Shown one piece after another: positions 3,474 through 23,932 of a DNA stretch of 33,945 bases. The DNA comes from a bacterium. GTDB lineage: Bacteria > Hydrothermota > UBA3073 > JACQXS01. The DNA lies in NCBI GenBank assembly GCA_030605695.1, contig JAUWHX010000026.1:1-33945 (forward strand), given 5' to 3'. The translations under genes were made by a program, and so were the position numbers. The notes beneath the pieces were generated by a model. It saw only the letters and a list, made by a program, of their open reading frames with translations, was not told the origin of the DNA and searched no databases. The stretch's first letter is position 1. Each line of letters starts with the position of its first letter.

Positions 3474-5795
3474 TTACTTCAGCAAAATAAACTTCTTGAC
3501 TTGTAAAAGTTCACTTCCAATCTTCAGTCTGCAGAAATAAACTCCACAAGGAAAGTCTTTTGCGTTCCAGTCAATCGTATATTCACCGGATTGCTTTAAT
3601 CCTTTAGCAAGCGTATTTATTTTTTGACCACAGATGTTGTATATAGCCAAATCAATTTTTGCTAATTGAGGAATATTGTATATTATATTAGTTATAGCAT
3701 TAAAAGGATTTGGATGCACCACCAGTTTTACATTTTGCACTTTGCATTTTGCATTTTCATCAACTCCTACTTCTTTCTTGTAGAATGTCTCAAGTTTCAA
3801 ATAGTCTGCATAATTTGTAAATGGGTGCTTGTTCGTGGTAAAAACGCGCAGTTTTATCTGATTGTCTCCTGAAATATAATCTCCTACATTATGGATTATA
3901 CCATCCTCCTGAGTAAAATCCTGTGGGCCTATTATTCTCCAGCCAATGAGGTCCCATTCCGAGCTCGAGTAGTTCCAAATGTATAAGTAATTAAAAGTGC
4001 TATCCTCTGACGAATGCCCATTACAAGTTATCCAAATTCTTTTTATGCTATCTCTCGGCTCATCCACATTGTAATAAGTATAAAAGTCTGTGCAATACTC
4101 AATCCACCACTTTGAGTCTATCACAAGATACTGCCCATCATCAGCAGAAAGGGAGTTTTTGTCTCCACTCACTATGGTTCCATAAACTATGCTCAAGGAG
4201 TCACACAAATACTCAGAAGCACAAAGCAGATTCCAGTATGCTCTCAATGCTAACATAAATTCATCAAGCTTTACAAATTTGAGCTCCCCGGGATGTAAAT
4301 TATTTAGTCTTTCCATTATTATACGAATGGAGTCAACATTAAAACAAAAAAGATGAGCACCTGAACACAAGAATAACGGTCTTTCGTTAAAGCTATTAGC
4401 TACACTATCTAACACAGCAACTGCACTATCTATTGTCCCTGTTGCAATTGGTGCAGGAATAACCCAAGGGATATTATTAGAGACTCTGAAATTGCCGGTA
4501 TTTATCCAGCCAAGCTCAGTACCAGTATAACCTTGTGTAAAGCCAAGAAAATTATTTAGTGTTGATGTATATGCAGAAATAATCTCTTCATCCATCCTAA
4601 ATCCATTTATAAGGGCAAGAGCTTTTAGGTCGCACTCATCCATCCTTGATTTTGATTGATTCAAATATTGGCCCAGCAAAGGAAAATCAGTAGGATAGAT
4701 ATAGCCCAAACCAAAGCCTGCAATAAAATAGTCATTATCGGTTTTCGTCTCATAATAATGTTGATAAATTCCAGGGCAATGATTTCTAAACACTGGCTCA
4801 AAATACCAGTTTAATGGAATACTCCCACGCATTGGGTCATCCCATGCATTATAAAATCTATTTTGCATCATGTCGCCACCGCCATCTATCATAGTAAATG
4901 TACAGTATATTTTTGTTGTATCTAATGACACTGTATCACAATGTAGTTGATGATAAACAGTGTCGGCAGGCATTTTTGAATGCACAGAATAATTGACTGC
5001 GTCATACCTTTCGTGCAAAAGCATAAGATTATATTTTGATGCAAGATGAACATGCCATGCCTCATAAACCGGGTTAATGTACACTTCAGGCCAGCCAAGC
5101 ACAATACCAAATGGATTCATCTGCTCGTAATAGGTTTTAAGTAATTCATACTCTTCCGTATCATCAGGATTGGGTGAAAGGTCAACCACGCAGGCGCGAT
5201 TTTCAATAACATAATCTTTCTGTGGATGACCACATTCCCACAACCACCAGTGAATAGTCATCATAGCAATCATATCTGTATTACAATAGGGAAAAAGGCT
5301 GTCTCTTTGCCAAGTATATGCTTCTATTTGGTCAGTCCACATACCCCTCAAATCCCTGAGTTCAGATATTCCGAGGCTATCAAGTTTATTTATATAGTCA
5401 GGATGAGCGACAATGGCACTATCTATTCCAGCCATTGTGAAAGCAATATTTATAGAATGGCGAAAATTAGTGTCATAGAGGATATATCCTTTTACATTAT
5501 TTCTATATTTGCTTAGTGCAGAATCCAAAGAGACAGTATCGCAAGCAATCCAGCCCTTATATTGATAGTAATCAAGCCACCTTTCTGATGGAGTTAAAAG
5601 AAGTGGAGTTATATTGTGCCAAATATCTTCCCAGATTATATAGAGACACGCAGAATCACGATTCACATTACCTTGAAGACTTAATGCCAACAATCTCTCC
5701 TTTTCGGGTGTATTCTTGAGGTCAATAACATCAAGATGTATCCCATAAACTGATACCGACCACAAAAGTATCAAAAAGTTAATGCATTTTCTCAT
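3474..5795 (-). CDS. Secreted GxGYxYP-family putative glycoside hydrolase with sorting tail
   Basis: A 773-residue exported protein. The signal peptide MRKCINFLILLWSVSVYG is followed by a large domain holding the family-naming motif GLGYIYP at residues 362-368 (GxGYxYP). This matches the GxGYxYP putative glycosidase family, whose activity is predicted from fold and gut-bacterial context rather than well characterised. The N-terminal part (about 30-270) fits the family's N domain. Residues about 690-773 are the T9SS-like sorting domain (HPNPFNA, ICGQKINTL, GVYFCRLKIG, KKFILLK). The linker before PNPF is encoded by a 7-bp repeat (3732-3759). A strong GAGGAGG ribosome site precedes ATG. It follows the GH-A glycosidase gene by 61 bp and leads into murI, so a role in extracellular glycan breakdown is a fair inference. 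Confidence 0.8.
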   Translation of the reverse strand: MRKCINFLILLWSVSVYGIHLDVIDLKNTPEKERLLALSLQGNVNRDSACLYIIWEDIWHNITPLLLTPSERWLDYYQYKGWIACDTVSLDSALSKYRNNVKGYILYDTNFRHSINIAFTMAGIDSAIVAHPDYINKLDSLGISELRDLRGMWTDQIEAYTWQRDSLFPYCNTDMIAMMTIHWWLWECGHPQKDYVIENRACVVDLSPNPDDTEEYELLKTYYEQMNPFGIVLGWPEVYINPVYEAWHVHLASKYNLMLLHERYDAVNYSVHSKMPADTVYHQLHCDTVSLDTTKIYCTFTMIDGGGDMMQNRFYNAWDDPMRGSIPLNWYFEPVFRNHCPGIYQHYYETKTDNDYFIAGFGLGYIYPTDFPLLGQYLNQSKSRMDECDLKALALINGFRMDEEIISAYTSTLNNFLGFTQGYTGTELGWINTGNFRVSNNIPWVIPAPIATGTIDSAVAVLDSVANSFNERPLFLCSGAHLFCFNVDSIRIIMERLNNLHPGELKFVKLDEFMLALRAYWNLLCASEYLCDSLSIVYGTIVSGDKNSLSADDGQYLVIDSKWWIEYCTDFYTYYNVDEPRDSIKRIWITCNGHSSEDSTFNYLYIWNYSSSEWDLIGWRIIGPQDFTQEDGIIHNVGDYISGDNQIKLRVFTTNKHPFTNYADYLKLETFYKKEVGVDENAKCKVQNVKLVVHPNPFNAITNIIYNIPQLAKIDLAIYNICGQKINTLAKGLKQSGEYTIDWNAKDFPCGVYFCRLKIGSELLQVKKFILLK
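3732..3759. repeat. Heptanucleotide repeat (attttgc type) inside a sorting domain
   Basis: Four 7-bp units (attttgc, actttgc, attttgc, attttca) encoding the linker ENAKCKVQNVKL immediately before the PNPF strand. Similar runs at the same protein position are at 6121-6147 and 11251-11279. Confidence 0.75.
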
Positions 5796-10975: not shown

Positions 10976-12925
10976 CTACCTAAAAAGCAGCAGTTTTTTG
11001 GTTTGTGAAAATTCATCACCGACCGTTAATTTACAAAAATAAACCCCTGAACCTACTTTTTCGCCTAAATCATTCTCTCCATCCCAAACTACAGTAACGA
11101 GTGATGAGTGACGAGTGACAGGCAGGGGTTTGACCAACCGGCCTGTCAAATCGTAAATTTGAATCCTTGTTACTTGTGACTTGTCACTTGTTACTGGTAT
11201 TTGACAACAAATAACGGTCTTTTGAGTAAATGGATTAGGGTATATCTTTAATTTTGCACTTTGCACTTTGATTTTTTCACTTTCTTCAACCCCGCTTTCA
11301 CTAACTCGGACCATAAAGTAAGTCTGGACACTGTCTCCAAAATTGTCCTTTAAAGTGAGCCAGAGTGCATAATATCCTATTTCAAGAGAATCCGTGTCCC
11401 AATACCCAAGAAGCGAATCCCTGACCCCTTCAGTATGCTCAAGCCCAATTAGTATTAAACTATCCCAAGTAGGTGGAGGGGCATACCATAGTCTGTAAGA
11501 ACCAAATGAGTATGGAGAACTTGGACCTACATCAATGTATGCTGAACCATATATTGGAACAAAGTTTGATATAGGAACAACGGTTGGTGAATCTACTGAA
11601 GCAAAATATAAAGCTGATTCATCAAGCAATCTTGGCGACTGAAAACTCCTGCTATTGAGAAGTACGGACTTCCCTTTATCCTTAAGACAAAATTCACTCA
11701 TTAAGTATCCGTGGGATAGTGCAAATATCCCTTGCTCAGCCACAAAAGTCTCAGCAGATATACCACACTGGTCAGCAAAAATAAATGAGTTTCCATAAAT
11801 CCAGAACGGCCCACCTTTGCCATCATGAGTTGAACTTTTCATATAGAGAGTATTATAGTTCATAGAGAGAATTTCCGAAATTATACTGTTTTCTAAAGTA
11901 ACTATTGCTGTATCCTGCATATGCAAATGCCAGTTCACTACTTTAGTATTTACAAGTCTCAGTCGTCTATCAGAAATCGGAATCTCCCAATCAGAATAAT
12001 AAGTCCCGGGCGTTAAACCAGATATAGTAAAACTGTCAGTCCCTGTTGCCCGAATAATAGGAGGAGTCTCACAGTCACGGATAGTTACATCTGAACCCGA
12101 GTGAAACCAGGGTCCATTTTCCAAAATATAGCAGGAATCAACAGTAATACAATAATCTACTCCCTTACACAAAGGTAAATTGTCAGGCAAAATCCAGTGA
12201 GCTACAAACTCTTCGTGAAATGGAAAATAATCGACTGTATCTCCTTCCTCAAATACAAGCCACACAGTCAGAGACCCGGAGCGAGTAAATGTCCCACGAC
12301 TTGTATCTGAAAAAGCATACTCTCCTACAAGCCCATGACAGTCCTCTATCGTAATTTCTGCTTGATTACACAAAAACCCAGCTATCCAGTCATCAAAATA
12401 TGTGTTTATCCAACTAACCTGACTATTATACCCGCAGTTCACAAGAGCAGGGAAAAGATTTGCGTAAAAATGCGAATTCTCAAGCTTGAGCTCAGAATTG
12501 TCGGCAGTAAAAAAGTTAAATTGCCATGAGAAAATTTGCAAGAAGCCGACACGACTCGAATCAGCGAGAAGCTTCCCATTATTAAGTAACCATATATCGC
12601 CATAGTTTAGGAAATCAGCATTTTCAATTAAGATGACCCCATTGTTCATCACACAAATATCTCCGTAGTGCAGATAAGTTGTGTCGTGCACATAAAGTGT
12701 CTCGTTTGGATTAGGATATCCGACAATAAGAGTATCCAGTATCTTTTTCGCCTCAAAAATGGCCTGTGGACTTTTTACCACTGCTTCCGGAAGTACAAGA
12801 TTTCCTGAGCCTGCGCTCATCCTCACAAACTCATTTATCTTATCAAAATTGGTTGTTGCCAAACCGTGTTGTGTTAATCCCCAGCACAAGATAATAAAAA
12901 CTATAATGGTTCTCTTTGACATCAT
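10976..12925 (-). CDS. Secreted beta-helix-like cargo protein, paralog B of three
   Basis: A 649-residue exported protein (signal about 1-23, MMSKRTIIVFIILCWGLTQHG). It has the same plan as its neighbours: solenoid-like strands at about 75-470, the landmark GVDYCITVDSCY, PISDRRLRLVNT, an Ig/Fn3-like module (YGSAYIDVGPSSPY), then a sorting domain (YPNPFTQKTVICCQ, YDLTGRLVKPL, GSGVYFCKLTVGDE, KKLLLFR). Unlike paralogs A and C it has a canonical PNPF tail, and this tail carries three 7-bp repeat runs (11095-11120, 11166-11197, 11251-11279). Two adjacent ATGs (12925, 12922) follow GGGAGGGG; the second has better spacing. No enzymatic motif is seen. Confidence 0.75.
   Translation of the reverse strand: MMSKRTIIVFIILCWGLTQHGLATTNFDKINEFVRMSAGSGNLVLPEAVVKSPQAIFEAKKILDTLIVGYPNPNETLYVHDTTYLHYGDICVMNNGVILIENADFLNYGDIWLLNNGKLLADSSRVGFLQIFSWQFNFFTADNSELKLENSHFYANLFPALVNCGYNSQVSWINTYFDDWIAGFLCNQAEITIEDCHGLVGEYAFSDTSRGTFTRSGSLTVWLVFEEGDTVDYFPFHEEFVAHWILPDNLPLCKGVDYCITVDSCYILENGPWFHSGSDVTIRDCETPPIIRATGTDSFTISGLTPGTYYSDWEIPISDRRLRLVNTKVVNWHLHMQDTAIVTLENSIISEILSMNYNTLYMKSSTHDGKGGPFWIYGNSFIFADQCGISAETFVAEQGIFALSHGYLMSEFCLKDKGKSVLLNSRSFQSPRLLDESALYFASVDSPTVVPISNFVPIYGSAYIDVGPSSPYSFGSYRLWYAPPPTWDSLILIGLEHTEGVRDSLLGYWDTDSLEIGYYALWLTLKDNFGDSVQTYFMVRVSESGVEESEKIKVQSAKLKIYPNPFTQKTVICCQIPVTSDKSQVTRIQIYDLTGRLVKPLPVTRHSSLVTVVWDGENDLGEKVGSGVYFCKLTVGDEFSQTKKLLLFR
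11095..11120. repeat. Heptanucleotide repeat, paralog B sorting domain (loop after GRLV)
   Basis: Units taacgag, tgatgag, tgacgag, tgacagg encode VTRHSSLVT, the loop after GRLVKPLP. Confidence 0.7.
11166..11197. repeat. Heptanucleotide repeat, paralog B sorting domain (loop before IYDLTGRL)
   Basis: Units cttgtta, cttgtga, cttgtca, cttgtta encode PVTSDKSQVTR between the first and second strands of the sorting domain. Confidence 0.8.
11251..11279. repeat. Heptanucleotide repeat, paralog B, before PNPF
   Basis: Units attttgc, actttgc, actttga, ttttttc encode EKIKVQSAKLK just before YPNPF. Confidence 0.65.
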
Positions 12926-14970: not shown

Positions 14971-16458
14971 TCAGTGAAGAAGAATCAATTTCTTCATTGC
15001 TTTAAATTCACCAACCTCAAGTTTGCAGAAATAGATACCAGCCATTGCTCTCTTACCACTCGAGTCAGTTCCATCCCAAACTATTTCGTGAGTCGTCTCA
15101 ATATCCGTATGGAGAAAGGTGCGGATAACTCTGCCAGCAATATCGTGAATCGTGAGTCGTGAATCGTGAGTCGCTAAGTTAACTCGTTTTTCACTAACCT
15201 TTAACCCCTGAACCCTAATTACTATGGTTTGAGTGAATGGATTAGGAGAAACTATCATTTCGGTTTTCGGTGGTCGGTTTTCGGTGGTCGGTTCTTCTAT
15301 TCCCGGCGATAAAGTATCGCCCAAGGAATTTGTCTTGATTAAGTAAACATCGGCATATCCGGGGTTAGATGGTTCAATGTATCCTGTTATAATATAGCCA
15401 CTATCAGCTGTCTGTTGCACGGCATAACCACAATCATTATAATTTCCTCCGAAGAGCTTAACCCATGTTGTATCACCGAGAGAGTCTGTCTTGATAAGAC
15501 ACACATCATACCAGGTAGCACCACAAGAAAAGGTTCCCGTTACGATATATCCACCATCTGTGGTTTGCTGAACATCATAGCCATAATTATCCCATACAGC
15601 ACTTTCCCCAAAAGTCTTGGTCCATACCGTATCACCCCAAGCATCTGTTTTGATAAGATATACATCATAACGAGGATGAAAAGAGCTGGTCTCTCCTGCT
15701 ATGATATATCCACTATCCGTGGTCTGTTGAACAGACCAACCTCTATCAATGTGAAGCCCTCCAAAGGTTTTAGTCCACGCTGTATCACCGAGAGAGTCTG
15801 TCTTGATGAGATATACATCTTGGACTCCAGCACCAAACGACTCAGTTTCTCCTGTTATAATATACCCATCATCTGCAGTCTGTTGAACACAATAACCCCA
15901 ATCGGAATCATCTCCACCAAAGGTCTTGGTCCATAGTGTATCACCATCTGTATCTGTCTTGACAAGATATACATCAAAGTCAGTACTAAAGGAGCGAGTT
16001 CCTCCAACTATAATGTATCCACTATCAGTGGTTTGTTGAACGGAATGGCCCCACTCATAATTACCTCCACCAAATGTCTTGGTCCAGAGCGTATCACCAT
16101 CTGCATCTGTCTTAATGAGATATATGTCATGACTACCAGCACCAAAGGAGCCGGTGTAACCTGTTATGATATAGCCACTATCTGCGGTCCGCTGGACATC
16201 ATAGCCCTTTTCTACATCGTTTCCTCCAAAAGTCCTGGTCCAAAGTGTATCACCCAGAGAATCTGTCTTAATGAGATATACATCAACATTGCCAGAAAAA
16301 TCAGTCTCTCCTGCGATGATATATCCACCATCTGTGGTTCGTCTAACGGAATAGCCCAAATTATTATTACCTTCTCCAAATGTCTTGGTCCAACTTTCTG
16401 CACGGATTGAGCAGAAGGTAGATATAACTACTATTCCTAACCAGAAATGACCTCTCAT
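14971..16458 (-). CDS. Secreted seven-repeat beta-propeller protein with sorting tail
   Basis: A 495-residue exported protein (signal MRGHFWLGIVVISTFCSIRA). Residues about 20-385 are seven tandem repeats of about 52 residues with consensus TFGG-x4-D-x-G-x-SVQQTTDSGYII-x-G, then DVYLIKTDSLGDT-x-WTK. Seven units fit a closed seven-bladed propeller. A sorting domain (SPNPFTQTIVIRVQ, HDIAGRVIRTF, AGIYFCKLEVGE, KKLILLH) follows. No catalytic residues are apparent; a binding role is likely. An in-frame ATG at 16470 is overlapped by the GGAGG ribosome site that serves the ATG at 16458, so I start there. Sorting-domain loops carry 7-bp repeats at 15143-15177 and 15260-15294. Confidence 0.85.
   Translation of the reverse strand: MRGHFWLGIVVISTFCSIRAESWTKTFGEGNNNLGYSVRRTTDGGYIIAGETDFSGNVDVYLIKTDSLGDTLWTRTFGGNDVEKGYDVQRTADSGYIITGYTGSFGAGSHDIYLIKTDADGDTLWTKTFGGGNYEWGHSVQQTTDSGYIIVGGTRSFSTDFDVYLVKTDTDGDTLWTKTFGGDDSDWGYCVQQTADDGYIITGETESFGAGVQDVYLIKTDSLGDTAWTKTFGGLHIDRGWSVQQTTDSGYIIAGETSSFHPRYDVYLIKTDAWGDTVWTKTFGESAVWDNYGYDVQQTTDGGYIVTGTFSCGATWYDVCLIKTDSLGDTTWVKLFGGNYNDCGYAVQQTADSGYIITGYIEPSNPGYADVYLIKTNSLGDTLSPGIEEPTTENRPPKTEMIVSPNPFTQTIVIRVQGLKVSEKRVNLATHDSRLTIHDIAGRVIRTFLHTDIETTHEIVWDGTDSSGKRAMAGIYFCKLEVGEFKAMKKLILLH
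15143..15177. repeat. Heptanucleotide repeat, propeller gene (loop before IHDIAGRV)
   Basis: Units tcgtgaa, tcgtgag, tcgtgaa, tcgtgag, tcgctaa: two copies of a 14-bp double unit, then a variant. They encode LATHDSRLTIHD. Confidence 0.85.
15260..15294. repeat. Heptanucleotide repeat, propeller gene (linker before PNPF)
   Basis: Units tcggttt, tcggtgg, tcggttt, tcggtgg, tcggttc: again a duplicated 14-bp double unit. They encode TTENRPPKTE before the SPNPF strand. Confidence 0.85.
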
Positions 16459-18159: not shown

Positions 18160-21100
18160 TCAACGGAGCAAAATCAATTTCTTCGTAATATTGTAATCGC
18201 CTACTGTGAATCTTATGAAATATACTCCACCTCCAAGCTTCTCGGTATCCCACACTACTTCGTGATTCGTGAATCGTGAATCGTGAATCGTGATTTCTCG
18301 AACAAGTCTGCCGGAAATATCGTAAATCGTTATTCGTGAGTTGTTAATCGTCTTGATTCCACCTACTGAATAGCGAATAATGATTTCATCAGAGCGGGAT
18401 GGATTTGGATAGAGAGCAATGCCAAAACTTCCTGGTAATTTTGTTTCTTCAGCTCCAGTTCCGTAAACCTTTATCCTAATAGGGATATTAGAATCATCAA
18501 CATTCAGACTGAAATCTAAATAATGTCCATAGGGGGCTGAGGAACTGATTTCAAAAGAGAACCATCCCTCCACTACTCCCTTACCCGGTATATCACCAAA
18601 AATTAGACTGTCATACGGAAGGATCGTAACATAAGAGTCGGGACAAGATATATTTCCAGATGTATTAAATAAAGGGGAAGTCCCCTCGTTAATCAGCCAT
18701 ATATACACAAACACACTCTCCCCCGGGTCAACGATACCATCGTTGTTGCCAAGTGAGTCATTTATAATAAGGTCTCCTATGCGGAGTTGGGGTTCAGTTT
18801 CAAGTTCTCCTACTCTCACATCATCAATATAAAAGCCTTCTTCTACATCTTTATTATCTGAAACAAAGCCAAATTTAACTTGAAGTGTATCTCCAATAGG
18901 ATATTTTGAGAGATCATAAGAGTATTTTGCCCAGTCTGTCTCAAATCCACTTTTCACTTCTTCAAGTGCTCCTCCACACCCTATAAAATCAAGTGTATCC
19001 TCAGCCCCGCCGTTGGCGGGGTCAATTATAGCATAAATTCCATCCCCCTCATACCCATGAGCAGAATAGATAGCGACATCAAATCGGCACCAGAAAGAAA
19101 GCCAGGACTTTGGTCCAAGAGTAAATTCGGGACTTAAGAGCCAGCAAGTATCTATATCATTTTCATATTCCCAGCTCGTAGTGTCTCCACAATACCAAGA
19201 ATGCAAAGAAGAATGATAGTTATGTTGTGTAACTGTCCATAAGTCTGTTGCTCCGCCGTGAGTCCAGTTAGTATCGGATTCAAAGTCATCAAAGAAACTA
19301 ATTGTTCCTTGTCCAATTTTAAGCAAGAATGTATCTTCAAATTCTTCTGAATAGCCAAGACTTTTGGAGTTTAGAATAATCTCGGCAAAATGAGGAGAAG
19401 GACAAGTAGGTTTTACAGCAATCCTATAAGAGAAATTACCATAAGAATCAGCTTTAATACGCTTAAGAGTTCCCAGTGTGTCAAGAATAATAAGTTCAGT
19501 GTCAGGTGAACTGATTTCTCCTTCTACATCCAGAGCTCCTCCTCCCGTATTTTTTATAGTTATCCATAACTCGGAAGTATCTCCTGGCGAGAGAATCTTA
19601 TCCACTGCATAATACTGATACTCAAGCCAAGGCGTTTGAACCAAGAAATTCAGATTAATGTCTTCAAAGTTTTGGATACTCAAAGTACAGGGAACTAAAT
19701 GTCCGTTTTGGCAAGTTGAATCCACTCTAAAACTAAAGTCTCCGGATACAATATTGCCAGCAGAAATGTCACCAAAATCATGAGTGCTGTCTAAAAGAGT
19801 GATATAAGAATCGTTAGTTCGGAGCGTTGCATTTACTCCGTCTGCCTGTTCGGTGCCGTAATTTTTCAGAGTAACTGTTAAATCAATTAACTCGCCGGGG
19901 TTTATTTCTCCATTGATTCCTGAATCGGATATTTCCTGACTATAATATCCGGGACAGGGACCTGTAGAGAAAACTATTGCCTTTTCTTGACGGGGATAAT
20001 AATTATGATAACTTGCAGTAACCAAAAGCGTTCCCGGTGAAGTTGGGTTCACTGTAAATATTGCCTCGCCAGCCTGATTTGTATAAGAAGTCGCAAAAAC
20101 TTCATCATCAAAATATTTATTGCAACAAACAAGTGCTCCTTTTATTGGTGATCCATCATGCGTCACCGAGACTTTAAATCTTGATTCACCAACTATCAAG
20201 CTTTCTGGATAAGAAATCTGTAATAAACCAGAGGGTTCACCTGTCCAAATATCAAGTTCTGGGTCTCCTAGAAGATTCAACTGATACTGATGCCAGCGGA
20301 ATACATTCTCGTTTCTGGAATAAGCAATATAATCCATTTTTGTGTGGGCAAGTGTAGCACCTATATGAGTTTCGCCTTTTTTAAATATGTTACAAAAGAA
20401 ACTCTCGTCTATCTTGTCTGAGTATCCGAAGCCCGGGTTTCCGGGAGAACCCCATCCATATCTTGAATTCGCAATAAACGCAATCCCTCCACCATTTGGA
20501 TTTAGTACCCAATGCTCACCGATACAATCGTAATCAAAAGCTCCACACCAGCATCCTATGGAATATAAGATTCCCTGCGCATCACCATTAGTTAGTGCAT
20601 CCATATCTGATTTGCCCAAGCCGTCAGGACCTATTCCCATATAACCAATACTTCCGTGCCCATCATGATTTAACAGTGAATTCCCGGAATTCATTGCATT
20701 TATTACGCTATCACGATTCTCATTTCCAAGTGATTCATAAAGCTTATGTATATTGAAATCTGTTGGAAATAACTCACCAATCATATTTTTGCCAATCCCT
20801 GCGTCTGTATAAGGGTCTGTCCACAGTATTTCAGCCATAAAGAGTGCGTCATCAAGATACCCTGGAGGAGGGTTTTTTTCATATTTTATAGTTTTGTTCA
20901 CAAAAGTTTGGACATCCGAAATATCACGCACAGGTGCTCTTCCAACAAAAATATCAGGATAAAGGTCAACCGAATCATCTACCTCACCAAAGATATAGTT
21001 GTTATTGGCATCCCAGGTCCCATCAAGGTCTGAATAATAGAGGTCAGAATGGAGACTATCTTCATCTGGAATTGGGAGTCCAGAACTACAGGTCATTGCA

Positions 21101-22029
21101 TAAGCAACTCTTGAGGGAACAACGACATTCATAGGGTCTGGGTCAGTGTCTCCGCCCAAGAGAACCCATACGAGTCCGGAGTCCTGAGCCGCTATTTTCA
21201 AGAAGTTTCTTATCTTTTCTTGAAGGTCTCTGCCTGTGTAATTTGCGTCAATCCACTCCGTGGTGCGGATTACAGACTTAATACCCTTTGAGGTTTTCCA
21301 TTGGACGAGAGGTTCAAATTGAGACGCAAGCAACGCTTTGGTTATAATCACATACTCATATCCTTGATAGCTTGTTGAGCTTGCGAAATCCCGATTTATC
21401 GGGGATAGCTTGATAGCTTGATAGCTAACATCCTCAGGATTTATTACGAGATCTTTTACTAATTTTATCATTTTGGGAGGTATATTTCGGTATTCGGTGT
21501 TCGGTATTCGGTGTTCGGTCAGTTCTATACTAACATCTATGCTCGTATAGAATTTAAGTTTCCTGGTAGCAGGAACCCACTGCATTGGATAAACAAGAAC
21601 TTCAGCGATTTTATATCCACGCATTGAGCCCTCTCCTGCAAATTCTATAAGTTTGCCGGGATACTCATCCGCTGATTTGTAAACCTCTAACTTTGGCTCA
21701 ACAAATTCTGTGATTTGTGATTTAAGATTTGGCATTCCACTTAATATCTGCGGTGGTTGAGACGGGCATACATTATATTCTCCAGCAAGCCACTTAAATT
21801 CACTTCCCGCAACTTTTACCTCTTTCACAGTGGTTCCTTCAGGCAACAGGAAATAAACTGCCTTAACCGGAAGCTGAGGTTCTCCCGGAGCAGGAATAAA
21901 ATTGCAGGTCAGGATTTTCGGAACTTCGTATCCCTTAATCGCATTAAACGAGAGCTCCTTTTCCGAGAAATACACACTTTTGGTAATCTCCCCAAGTCCC
22001 AAGATACTTACTAAAATGATATAAAACAT
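18160..22029 (-). CDS. Gingipain-like C25 cysteine protease, secreted, with sorting tail
   Basis: A 1289-residue exported endopeptidase. It has a signal peptide (about 1-17) and a propeptide-like region to about 215 (ELSFNAIKGYEVPKI, PQLPVKAVYFLLPEG). The C25 catalytic domain (about 222-590) has YVIITKALLASQFEPLVQWK, the probable catalytic His458 in NHDGHGS and Cys493 in YSIGCWCGAF. CARDB/Ig-like modules (about 650-860) and a MAM-like domain (about 885-1040, FFDDFESDTNWTHGG, LLSPEFTL) follow. The sorting domain (YPNPSRSDEIIIRYS, YDISGRLVREI, KKLILLR) ends the protein. GGGAGGAG sits before ATG. It is the first gene of the long operon. In-frame repeats mark the propeptide junction (21366-21427), the propeptide (21487-21520), the MAM-like domain (palindrome 19005-19021) and the sorting domain. 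Confidence 0.9.
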   Translation of the reverse strand: MFYIILVSILGLGEITKSVYFSEKELSFNAIKGYEVPKILTCNFIPAPGEPQLPVKAVYFLLPEGTTVKEVKVAGSEFKWLAGEYNVCPSQPPQILSGMPNLKSQITEFVEPKLEVYKSADEYPGKLIEFAGEGSMRGYKIAEVLVYPMQWVPATRKLKFYTSIDVSIELTEHRIPNTEYRNIPPKMIKLVKDLVINPEDVSYQAIKLSPINRDFASSTSYQGYEYVIITKALLASQFEPLVQWKTSKGIKSVIRTTEWIDANYTGRDLQEKIRNFLKIAAQDSGLVWVLLGGDTDPDPMNVVVPSRVAYAMTCSSGLPIPDEDSLHSDLYYSDLDGTWDANNNYIFGEVDDSVDLYPDIFVGRAPVRDISDVQTFVNKTIKYEKNPPPGYLDDALFMAEILWTDPYTDAGIGKNMIGELFPTDFNIHKLYESLGNENRDSVINAMNSGNSLLNHDGHGSIGYMGIGPDGLGKSDMDALTNGDAQGILYSIGCWCGAFDYDCIGEHWVLNPNGGGIAFIANSRYGWGSPGNPGFGYSDKIDESFFCNIFKKGETHIGATLAHTKMDYIAYSRNENVFRWHQYQLNLLGDPELDIWTGEPSGLLQISYPESLIVGESRFKVSVTHDGSPIKGALVCCNKYFDDEVFATSYTNQAGEAIFTVNPTSPGTLLVTASYHNYYPRQEKAIVFSTGPCPGYYSQEISDSGINGEINPGELIDLTVTLKNYGTEQADGVNATLRTNDSYITLLDSTHDFGDISAGNIVSGDFSFRVDSTCQNGHLVPCTLSIQNFEDINLNFLVQTPWLEYQYYAVDKILSPGDTSELWITIKNTGGGALDVEGEISSPDTELIILDTLGTLKRIKADSYGNFSYRIAVKPTCPSPHFAEIILNSKSLGYSEEFEDTFLLKIGQGTISFFDDFESDTNWTHGGATDLWTVTQHNYHSSLHSWYCGDTTSWEYENDIDTCWLLSPEFTLGPKSWLSFWCRFDVAIYSAHGYEGDGIYAIIDPANGGAEDTLDFIGCGGALEEVKSGFETDWAKYSYDLSKYPIGDTLQVKFGFVSDNKDVEEGFYIDDVRVGELETEPQLRIGDLIINDSLGNNDGIVDPGESVFVYIWLINEGTSPLFNTSGNISCPDSYVTILPYDSLIFGDIPGKGVVEGWFSFEISSSAPYGHYLDFSLNVDDSNIPIRIKVYGTGAEETKLPGSFGIALYPNPSRSDEIIIRYSVGGIKTINNSRITIYDISGRLVREITIHDSRFTNHEVVWDTEKLGGGVYFIRFTVGDYNITKKLILLR
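18260..18294. repeat. Heptanucleotide repeat, C25 gene sorting domain (loop after GRLV)
   Basis: Five units (tcgtgat, three tcgtgaa, tcgtgat) encode ITIHDSRFTNHE after GRLVRE. It is the cleanest run of this heptamer in the window. Confidence 0.9.
18320..18352. repeat. Heptanucleotide repeat, C25 gene sorting domain (loop before IYDISGRL)
   Basis: Units tcgtaaa, tcgttat, tcgtgag, ttgttaa, tcgtc encode KTINNSRIT before IYDISGRL. Confidence 0.75.
19005..19021. repeat. GC-rich perfect palindrome in the C25 gene
   Basis: CCCCGCC-gtt-GGCGGGG, a 7-bp stem with a 3-base loop, stands out in an AT-rich gene. It encodes DPANGGAED in the MAM-like domain and looks like an in-frame micro-insertion. Confidence 0.6.
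21366..21427. repeat. Octamer repeat with embedded palindrome at the C25 propeptide/catalytic junction
   Basis: Three 8-bp units (gatagctt) at 21404-21427 flank the palindrome TCCCGATttATCGGGG (21389-21404), with a further gatagctt at 21366. The block encodes SYQAIKLSPINRDFASSTSY, between propeptide and protease domain. The palindrome core CCCGAT-nn-ATCGGG recurs at 29030-29043. Confidence 0.7.
21487..21520. repeat. Heptanucleotide repeat in the C25 propeptide
   Basis: Units tcggtat, tcggtgt, tcggtat, tcggtgt, tcggtc form a duplicated 14-bp double unit. They encode TEHRIPNTEYRNI. Confidence 0.85.
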
Positions 22030-22283: not shown

Positions 22284-22793
22284 ATGAAGAAGTTTTTCAT
22301 CATCTTATCTGTCGTTACATTAGCTGTCGCTTTATTTGTTGGTGAAGCGAGGACTGCGAACTTAAAAGGCAAATTTGGTGCAGGATTAGAGATTAGCAGT
22401 TTCTACTACGATTATAGCTACGATTATTATTGGCGGGGCATAGGATTCAATGACATGGAGCTAATGTATGGATTGACAAATAACCTATCTCTCATTGTTG
22501 GGGGTGGAATATATGGTGAGCTGCGTCTTGAAATTGGATTACAGGGCTATGTAGAACCTACTAAAGCAGTTAGCCCATATTTTAAGGTCAGTTTTGATTG
22601 TCGGAACTACGACAGCTATTATTCTGAAAAAATCTACCCTTTGAAAATGGGTGCTGGAGTGGAGTATTTCTGGACCGAGCATCTGGGATTAGCTATCCAT
22701 ACATCTTTCCTTACAATTTATTTCAGTGGCTTCGCAGGGAATGATGCACAAATAATCACAATACCCGGTATATACTTCTGGATTCGGAAATAG
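22284..22793 (+). CDS. Small exported beta-barrel-like protein, unknown function
   Basis: A 169-residue protein with a signal peptide (MKKFFIILSVVTLAVALFVGEARTA). Alternating strands follow (LKGKFGAGLEISSFYYDY, LSLIVGGGIYGELRLEIGLQGYV, SPYFKVSFDCRNY, YPLKMGAGVEYFW, LGLAIHTSFLTIYF) and the C-terminus is aromatic-containing (IPGIYFWIRK). This is the pattern of a small outer-membrane barrel. It is the only intact plus-strand gene in the window, divergent from the secreted-protein operon and convergent with rnfA. AAGGGGGG lies just before ATG. A possible promoter is TTGCAA (22239-22244) with TATGTT (22261-22266), which is weak. There is no sorting tail. I do not recognise the family. Confidence 0.75.
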   Translation: MKKFFIILSVVTLAVALFVGEARTANLKGKFGAGLEISSFYYDYSYDYYWRGIGFNDMELMYGLTNNLSLIVGGGIYGELRLEIGLQGYVEPTKAVSPYFKVSFDCRNYDSYYSEKIYPLKMGAGVEYFWTEHLGLAIHTSFLTIYFSGFAGNDAQIITIPGIYFWIRK

Positions 22794-22818
22794 AGAACAA
22801 CCCCTACGCCTTCAGGGT

Positions 22819-22877
22819 AGGTTGAAGCCCTCGCTTCAACCTGTCGCAGACTCTGTGAGATACGAGCGAGGGCTCGC
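22819..22877. repeat. Two-hairpin repeat element with complementary loops
   Basis: The gene-free stretch 22794-23350 begins with a perfect 10-bp hairpin, AGGTTGAAGC-cctc-GCTTCAACCT (22819-22842). It is followed by the mini-element GTCGCAGACTCTGTGAGA (22843-22860) and a second hairpin CGAGC-gagg-GCTCG (22864-22877). The tetraloops cctc and gagg are complementary. A related second hairpin (tacgag...gctcgcatct) is at 28993-29012. No T-run follows on either strand, so a simple terminator role is not supported. Confidence 0.65.
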
Positions 22878-22920
22878 ATCTACCCCAAATCCTCCAATAA
22901 TTAACAGCAGAGTTGTTTTC

Positions 22921-22974
22921 ACTTCTACCGCACTTTAGTGCAAGGTTATGACCATCGGCTAAAGCCGTAGAAGT
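22921..22974. repeat. Multi-palindrome element with 8-bp terminal inverted repeats
   Basis: ACTTCTAC at the left end is inverted as GTAGAAGT at the right end. Between them are two 12-bp palindromes, GCACTttAGTGC (22930-22941) and CGGCTaaAGCCG (22956-22967), so the whole could fold as a cruciform or three-way structure. Half of the element recurs in inverse orientation at 33323-33343. Confidence 0.7.
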
Positions 22975-23026
22975 AAGAAGCGCCCATATATTTCTCTCGA
23001 CACCCCTAAAAAGCAACCCTATCATT

Positions 23027-23257
23027 GATGTCAACCAAAAGTTGGTGGAACTCCACCAAAAAGTCGTGGATATCCACCAAAAGTTAGTAGGTATCAACCA
23101 ATGACTTGCGGATATCAACTAAAGATTGGTGGAACTCTACCAAAAAGTTGTGGCATTCCACCAAAAGTTAGTGGAGGTCAACTAAAAGTTAGTGGGTATC
23201 AACCAAAGAGTCGTGGAACTCAACTAAAAGTTGGTGGATGTCAACAGAAAACTTGTG
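23027..23257. repeat. Eleven-unit, 21-bp tandem repeat array
   Basis: Eleven consecutive degenerate units of exactly 21 bp with no insertions or deletions, unit borders at 23027, 23048, 23069 and so on to 23257. Typical units are gaactccaccaaaaagtcgtg and gatgtcaaccaaaagttggtg. Across each unit border lies an imperfect palindrome of the form GTGGA-nn-TCCAC, perfect at 23065-23076 (gtggatatccac). The array sits between convergent genes. One plus-strand frame reads as heptads like KLVELHQKVVDIHQ but is broken by several stops; no frame stays open with a ribosome site. It is not a CRISPR array, because there are no unique spacers. Confidence 0.9.
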
Positions 23258-23274
23258 GAAAGGCATTCTTTTTT

Positions 23275-23332
23275 AACCACAAGGTGCACAAAGAGCACGG
23301 AGATTTATGAAAACTTTGTGTCCTTTGTGGTT
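23275..23332. repeat. Long imperfect inverted repeat (ACCACAAAG family)
   Basis: The 19-bp arms AACCACAAGGTGCACAAAG (23275-23293) and CTTTGTGTCCTTTGTGGTT (23314-23332) match at 16 positions around a 20-base loop. It lies 18 bp past the rnfA stop. It resembles the CACAGAG-type inverted repeat at 22074-22184 in layout. No T-run marks it as a terminator. Confidence 0.7.
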
Positions 23333-23350: not shown

Positions 23351-23932
23351 TTAAGAGAGTCCGAGGAAGCCCATAAATCCAAGGAAGGCAAGGGACATCA
23401 AGGAAGCTGTGATAAAAGCTATGGGTGCTCCTTTCAAGGCATCCGGTATCTCCGCAAGGTCAAGCCGTTCCCTGATTGATGAGATAAGGATAATGGCTAA
23501 TGCGAATCCGAATGCCGTGCCTATTGCAAATACGGTTGCCTTCACAAAAGTATATTCATTATCTATGATGAGGAAAGTCGTGCCGAGAATTGCACAGTTC
23601 GTTGTGATTAGCGGAAGATATATGCCGAGTGCGGAATAAAGAGCAGGGATGAATTTCCTGAAAACCATCTCCACGAGTTGAACGAGCGATGCGATTACAA
23701 GAATAAATGCGGCTGTGCGTAAATAGATAAGGTCAAGTGGCACCAAAACGAGTTTATATATCGCCAGGGTAATCCAGCTTGCTATGAGCATCACAAACAG
23801 GACTCCGCCTGACATTCCGATTGCCGAGCTGAGTTTCTTCGAGACGCCGAGCCAAGGGCAAAGCCCGAGAAACCGCATCAGAACGATGTTGTTGACAAGA
23901 AATGCGGAAAGGAATATTAGAAATAAACTCAT
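23351..23932 (-). CDS. rnfA: Electron transport complex subunit RnfA
   Basis: A 193-residue integral inner-membrane protein with six predicted helices. RnfA with RnfE forms the membrane core of the ferredoxin:NAD+ oxidoreductase that couples electron flow to ion pumping. Hallmarks are LVNNIVLMRFLGLCPWLGVS near the N-terminus and TTNCAILG (about residue 110), which contains a cysteine conserved with RnfE for the in-membrane [2Fe-2S] centre. Length is normal. The ATG at 23932 has no ribosome site directly upstream. Instead a duplicated copy of its first codons (23969-23993) has the GAGG site, and the resulting 18-residue leader ORF stops 4 bases before this ATG. rnfB, normally next, is absent; the repeat-filled gap follows. 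Confidence 0.95.
   Translation of the reverse strand: MSLFLIFLSAFLVNNIVLMRFLGLCPWLGVSKKLSSAIGMSGGVLFVMLIASWITLAIYKLVLVPLDLIYLRTAAFILVIASLVQLVEMVFRKFIPALYSALGIYLPLITTNCAILGTTFLIIDNEYTFVKATVFAIGTAFGFALAIILISSIRERLDLAEIPDALKGAPIAFITASLMSLAFLGFMGFLGLS

Follow-up and report, generated by a model that had tools for sequence, protein, structure and literature searches.

The tandem array at positions 23,027 to 23,257 of the window, the 33,945-nucleotide stretch of DNA analysed here, is a gene-less, decaying member of a dispersed family of 21-bp arrays. In this genome and in other phyla such arrays lie directly upstream of genes of one family, here called DYIP, and the arrays combine a fixed period with free sequence, frequent dyads, a position 5' of genes, dispersal and a partner gene. 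The reading we favour, tentatively and with somewhat less than even confidence, is that the window copy is a decaying member of this fixed-period family tied to DYIP and that the arrays act at the level of double-stranded DNA. The features of the window concerned are the following.

22,813 to 23,322: segment missing from the orthologous gene pair in the sister genome G002 (contig C68), which has about 20 bp instead
22,921 to 22,974: dispersed inverted repeat ACTTCTAC...GTAGAAGT, found also upstream of the C256 and C51/C92 arrays
22,991 to 23,026, plus strand: shared leader TTTCTC-TCGACA-N17-TATCAT, a sigma-70-like promoter directly before the array
22,997 to 23,002, plus strand: -35-like hexamer TCGACA, degraded from TTGACA
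23,020 to 23,025, plus strand: -10-like hexamer TATCAT
23,027 to 23,257, plus strand (the side on which the DYIP genes of relatives sit downstream): 21-bp tandem array of 11 units
23,045 to 23,056, no strand: perfect dyad GTGGA-AC-TCCAC
23,066 to 23,077, no strand: perfect dyad GTGGA-TA-TCCAC

The array consists of 231 bases in 11 units of exactly 21 bp each, with no indels between units and with seven of the 21 columns invariant. Its self-match is 68% at offsets of 21, 42 and 63, and at most 45% at any other offset up to 69. Both comparisons agree with the exact, indel-free array of the preliminary description, which had also correctly placed it between convergent 3' ends, those of a plus-strand gene (22,284 to 22,793) and a minus-strand gene (23,351 to 23,932). 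The TRF score (139-241), together with the near absence of other periods between 14 and 30 from 576 kb of the genome, indicates that the array is more than a product of chance; in that census period 21 was found 23 times, period 17 once and every other period from 14 to 30 not at all. The palindrome GTGGA-nn-TCCAC had been described for every border between units; it is perfect at two of the ten and imperfect at most others, five of which carry it with one mismatch, mostly an A in place of the needed C. A CRISPR-like array was rejected, as the units repeat throughout without unique spacers. An Rfam search of the window returned a tRNA above the gathering score and nothing else, and a search of viral contigs for the exact pattern of the array found nothing. 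The proposed heptamer theme is real in so far as short 7-bp arrays are enriched genome-wide, but the offset self-match shows no 7-bp periodicity inside the array, and a unit built of three diverged heptamers was therefore rejected. Short 7-bp tandem arrays are present in the window at 3726-3757, 11166-11198, 15142-15173, 18259-18293 and 21486-21519, and in the sampled genome sequence 53 short tandem arrays have period 7 and 16 have period 8, whereas the remaining periods between 4 and 13 have zero to two each.

The leader TTTCTC-TTGACA-N17 is common to several loci whose 21-bp units differ. Its -35 box reads TTGACA at three gene-bearing loci (C194, C256 and C92) and TTAACA at a fourth (C20), and TCGACA, CTGACA and CTGACA at the three gene-less ones, i.e. 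the window, C80 and C180, so that it is intact in three of the four gene-bearing copies and damaged in all three gene-less copies. The closest relative of the window array, on contig C194 of G001, is 84-85% identical and directly upstream of a DYIP gene, while this gene is absent downstream of the array at the window and likewise at C80 and C180. The window array is thus recognised as a decaying orphan by the missing gene, by its gene-bearing homologue at C194 and by the degraded -35 box common to all three orphans. It has the unit length of the family with DYIP, as well as its leader and array homology, and lacks the downstream gene. The search of the genome for further copies, which had been suggested at the outset, revealed a second array of 11 units with the same leader at C80 of the same assembly, and more in close relatives; the suggested alignment of orthologous gaps revealed the G002 gene pair that lacks the segment from 22,813 to 23,322. 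The window copy is most likely what remains of a mobile leader array with a putative function at the level of DNA. A DYIP gene has probably been lost from just after the array, and the copy, its promoter eroding, probably no longer works. Parts of the inverted repeat at 22,921-22,974 are found at many sites in G000 (the genome that carries the window), G001 and G002, and an intergenic repeat of about 28 bp, TAGGTTGAAGCCCTCGCTTCAACC... (22,814-22,843), is identical across several genomes of the order.

G000 is a WOR-3/Stahlbacteria-type MAG of 1.98 Mb in 93 contigs. Of the 23 period-21 arrays counted in 576 kb of it, about 10 immediately precede a DYIP gene and more than half have no DYIP neighbour; WOR-3 arrays also precede genes other than DYIP. 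The array between yebC and ruvC is present in G000 and absent in G001, G002, G003 and G006. It is bordered on either side by an 8-bp direct repeat, AAAATGAA, the evidence of which for dispersal is weakened by its being a single case; a direct repeat was not seen at the window junction, nor were terminal inverted repeats recognised at arrays. At one orthologous locus, C38 in G000 and C113 in a sister genome, the flanks are 92-94% and the DYIP genes 92% identical, and the arrays are unalignable. A DYIP protein co-evolved to recognise the letters of its array was therefore rejected. Further 21-bp arrays, at L178 (3138-4616) and L243, precede members of the multi-copy gene family MRNLLRVWAFVGTQ..., which has internal repeats resembling those of the window at 15.6-16.4 kb. 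Some MAG contigs (C51/C92 and G001:C193; loci L019, L020 and L240) end within or beside arrays, and as contigs break there the counts of arrays and of DYIP genes are lower bounds.

The DYIP family comprises proteins of about 220 amino acids that start with M(x)KDYIPxxDAEF(N/D)xW..., encoded directly behind the arrays at C194, C256, C20 and others. There are 15 copies in the assembly of the window, eight and one in two congeners and 13 in a genome from the same taxonomic family; the 56 other genomes of the phylum yielded none. In this assembly and its relatives a 21-bp array precedes the DYIP start wherever sufficient upstream sequence is available. The AlphaFold2 prediction (mean pLDDT 85, pTM 0.45) features a pair of long helices together with an FnIII-like domain, and the structural neighbours found for it are FnIII domains; the protein is predicted to have a helical N-terminus and an FnIII-like C-terminus. 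No convincing family emerged from comparison with Pfam, NCBIfam, PHROGs and PADLOC, and nothing useful from solved-structure sequences, no DNA-binding or transposase domain being recognisable in these curated-family and solved-structure searches. The family was not found in plasmid, phage and viral collections.

When 84,980 genomes were scanned for DYIP loci with a DNA motif, 77 emerged, distributed among Spirochaetota, Planctomycetota, Bacteroidota/Ignavibacteriota, Verrucomicrobiota, Armatimonadota, SAR324, Sumerlaeota/BRC1 and others; nearly all of the genomes concerned are MAGs, and some may be binning errors. In a free search of periods from 8 to 69 the best period upstream of DYIP was 21, 42 or 63 at most loci, and a 21-bp array was present upstream of the gene in 41 of 62 regions, compared to two of 379 control windows on the same contigs. 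The unit sequences are wholly different between loci and the period stays at 21; in all lineages 21, 42 and 63 dominate, the exceptions being only a few 18- or 22-bp stretches. The notion that spacing rather than sequence is under constraint is thereby strongly supported, as many phyla keep the 21 bp while the letters turn over. A description of 21-bp arrays with a DYIP gene was not found in the open-licence literature, and the pairing across phyla appears to be undescribed.

Circular alignment of 68 arrays yielded a shared motif, approximately YYC-N4-N4-N4'-GRR-NNN, of 5.45 bits compared to 3.37 ± 0.06 for permuted columns. In the full set one dyad axis has covarying stem columns (z 10.4), and tests of single arrays for dyads gave p<0.05 for 20 of the 68 (Fisher 1e-9). 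A strict set was limited to one array for each genome of other phyla, 34 in total; here the motif is still significant (5.2 versus 4.0 bits) but the common dyad axis is not (z 3.3 versus a permuted best-axis maximum of 5.2), and many arrays carry no dyad. Dyads are therefore a frequent and not a defining feature of the arrays; those noted initially are real and enriched, but are found neither at every border nor in every array. G-T pairs are present at 0.66 and A-C pairs at 0.84 of expectation, with no preference for wobble pairs; this speaks for a feature of the DNA rather than for hairpins in a sense RNA.

From this we infer that the array is a helically phased, DNA-level leader read by its structure. 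With units of two helical turns, the quasi-dyad sites in the gene's 5' region would face the same side of the helix, and a protein that reads structure and not letters, or hairpin extrusion driven by supercoiling, would there act on the expression of the gene downstream. DYIP, or a partner of DYIP, is a candidate for such a protein, a putative role that is weakened by its lack of a recognisable DNA-binding or transposase domain. The arrays may grow and turn over by tandem duplication and may be copied between loci. The DNA-level reading is in turn weakened by the loss of a significant axis in the strict set together with the many dyad-less arrays, by the RNA fold of the window array, which would allow a role for RNA, and by the WOR-3 operon arrays open in sense, which point to translation at those sites.

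Among the alternatives, it is unlikely that the array is a transcribed leader, a series of tandem RNA hairpins in the 5' UTR that governs the stability or translation of the downstream gene. A sigma-70-like promoter does lie ahead of the array in the window's own subfamily, the median distance from array end to ATG is 79 bp, covariation is seen between stem columns of the full array set, and the window array folds in sense with a z of -5.8 relative to shuffles. However, the antisense strand has almost the same folding tendency (z -4.8), the fold predicted consists of long-range pairing and not of a row of hairpins, and G-U pairs show depletion instead of enrichment when compared with A-C. Improbable too is a selfish minisatellite, in which slippage and template switching at hairpins, or a mobile element, would generate 21-bp arrays without function. 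Rapid turnover, presence and absence at orthologous sites, the single 8-bp direct repeat and the many gene-less copies are consistent with such an origin, but neutral DNA would not be expected to have a fixed period, a common YYC...GRR motif and one partner gene family that recurs across phyla. Unit length that varies among relatives had been named as the mark of a neutral minisatellite, and the result was the opposite, the period of 21 being kept.

Less probable still is a translated heptad minigene, in which 21 bp equal seven codons of a repeat peptide encoded upstream of DYIP, the window copy being its pseudogene. In the window array the sense frame 2 (KVGGTPPK...) is free of stops and the KLVDIHQ frame is interrupted by four, and the close copies did not yield an intact KLVDIHQ gene. 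At C194, C20, C256 and C37 the DYIP gene is intact and an ORF spanning the array is absent, as it is in those arrays of the window's leader subfamily that were examined. The decayed coiled-coil gene considered in the preliminary description did not hold up, since arrays with intact downstream genes also have stops in every frame; the idea of one ancestral coding sequence that extended through the leader was likewise rejected, as leader and array are in different frames at C256. Among 37 WOR-3 arrays, spanning ORFs are found in sense in 25 and in antisense in seven (discordant 21 versus 3), several of them starting with MNDL and ending only a few bases away from the following gene, and they are often fitted between operon genes. 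Stops are depleted in one register frame, but whichever register frame is fixed, about half of the arrays contain stops in it, the other phyla show no sense bias (19 sense versus 23 antisense), and a need for coding accounts for a multiple of three and not for 21 alone. WOR-3 arrays of the other leader family are mostly open in sense, which makes a translated leader plausible for them, but not for the window array, and the operon arrays may be held open so that ribosomes follow the polymerase, which would not be the cause of the period. An apparent korB and korC of a 2-oxoacid oxidoreductase operon are separated at L213 (720-1010) by an array whose MNDLMSSGNDS... ORF is open.

Iterons, or a replication or partition site, as had been raised from the two-turn spacing and the dyads, are very improbable, since arrays at many sites per genome make a single-origin reading untenable, no rep or par gene was recognised among the flanking ORFs, and DYIP is missing from the plasmid, phage and viral collections searched. 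Known phased arrays are identified by their letters. Iterons and arrayed operators resemble the arrays described here in their helical phasing, their dyads and their location near a gene, but they have one recognised sequence, whereas the sequence here is free even at orthologous sites.

Likeness to other repeat systems is partial. The archaeal Borg elements contain fast-evolving tandem arrays, both intergenic and within ORFs, where in-frame repeats keep the ORFs open, and like the present arrays these may be absent from the same site in a relative; however, Borg units vary (18, 20, 21 and 36 nt in one region) while those here are of 21 bp throughout, and a partner gene family is undescribed for them, in contrast to the pairing with DYIP (PMC9879509). 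REP/BIME and other small palindromic repeats are likewise dispersed, intergenic and present in many copies per genome, but REPs are of 20-40 bp, are classed by fixed sequence tags and lack a strict tandem 21-bp period, and DYIP is unlike a transposase (PMC3733652). MITEs and the enterobacterial RU elements share the short dispersed copies and their presence and absence, and some copies carry ORFs, while the direct repeat seen here is one case; unlike them, the present arrays are tandem inside, have no recognised terminal inverted repeats and are not conserved in their interior between copies (PMC2229807, PMC2759123).

The combination of free letters and a fixed period in distant phyla suggests selection on the geometry of the DNA itself, and ties the fixed-period arrays to one unannotated and testable gene family. 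It is possible, though on balance doubtful, that array and protein form a widespread, undescribed two-part element, in which an array selected for period and symmetry is read or maintained by a helical-FnIII protein and which spreads between genes and between phyla. If true, this would constitute a new class of cis-element, possibly a new mobile or regulatory module, and would help to explain why the contigs of these MAGs so frequently end at array loci.
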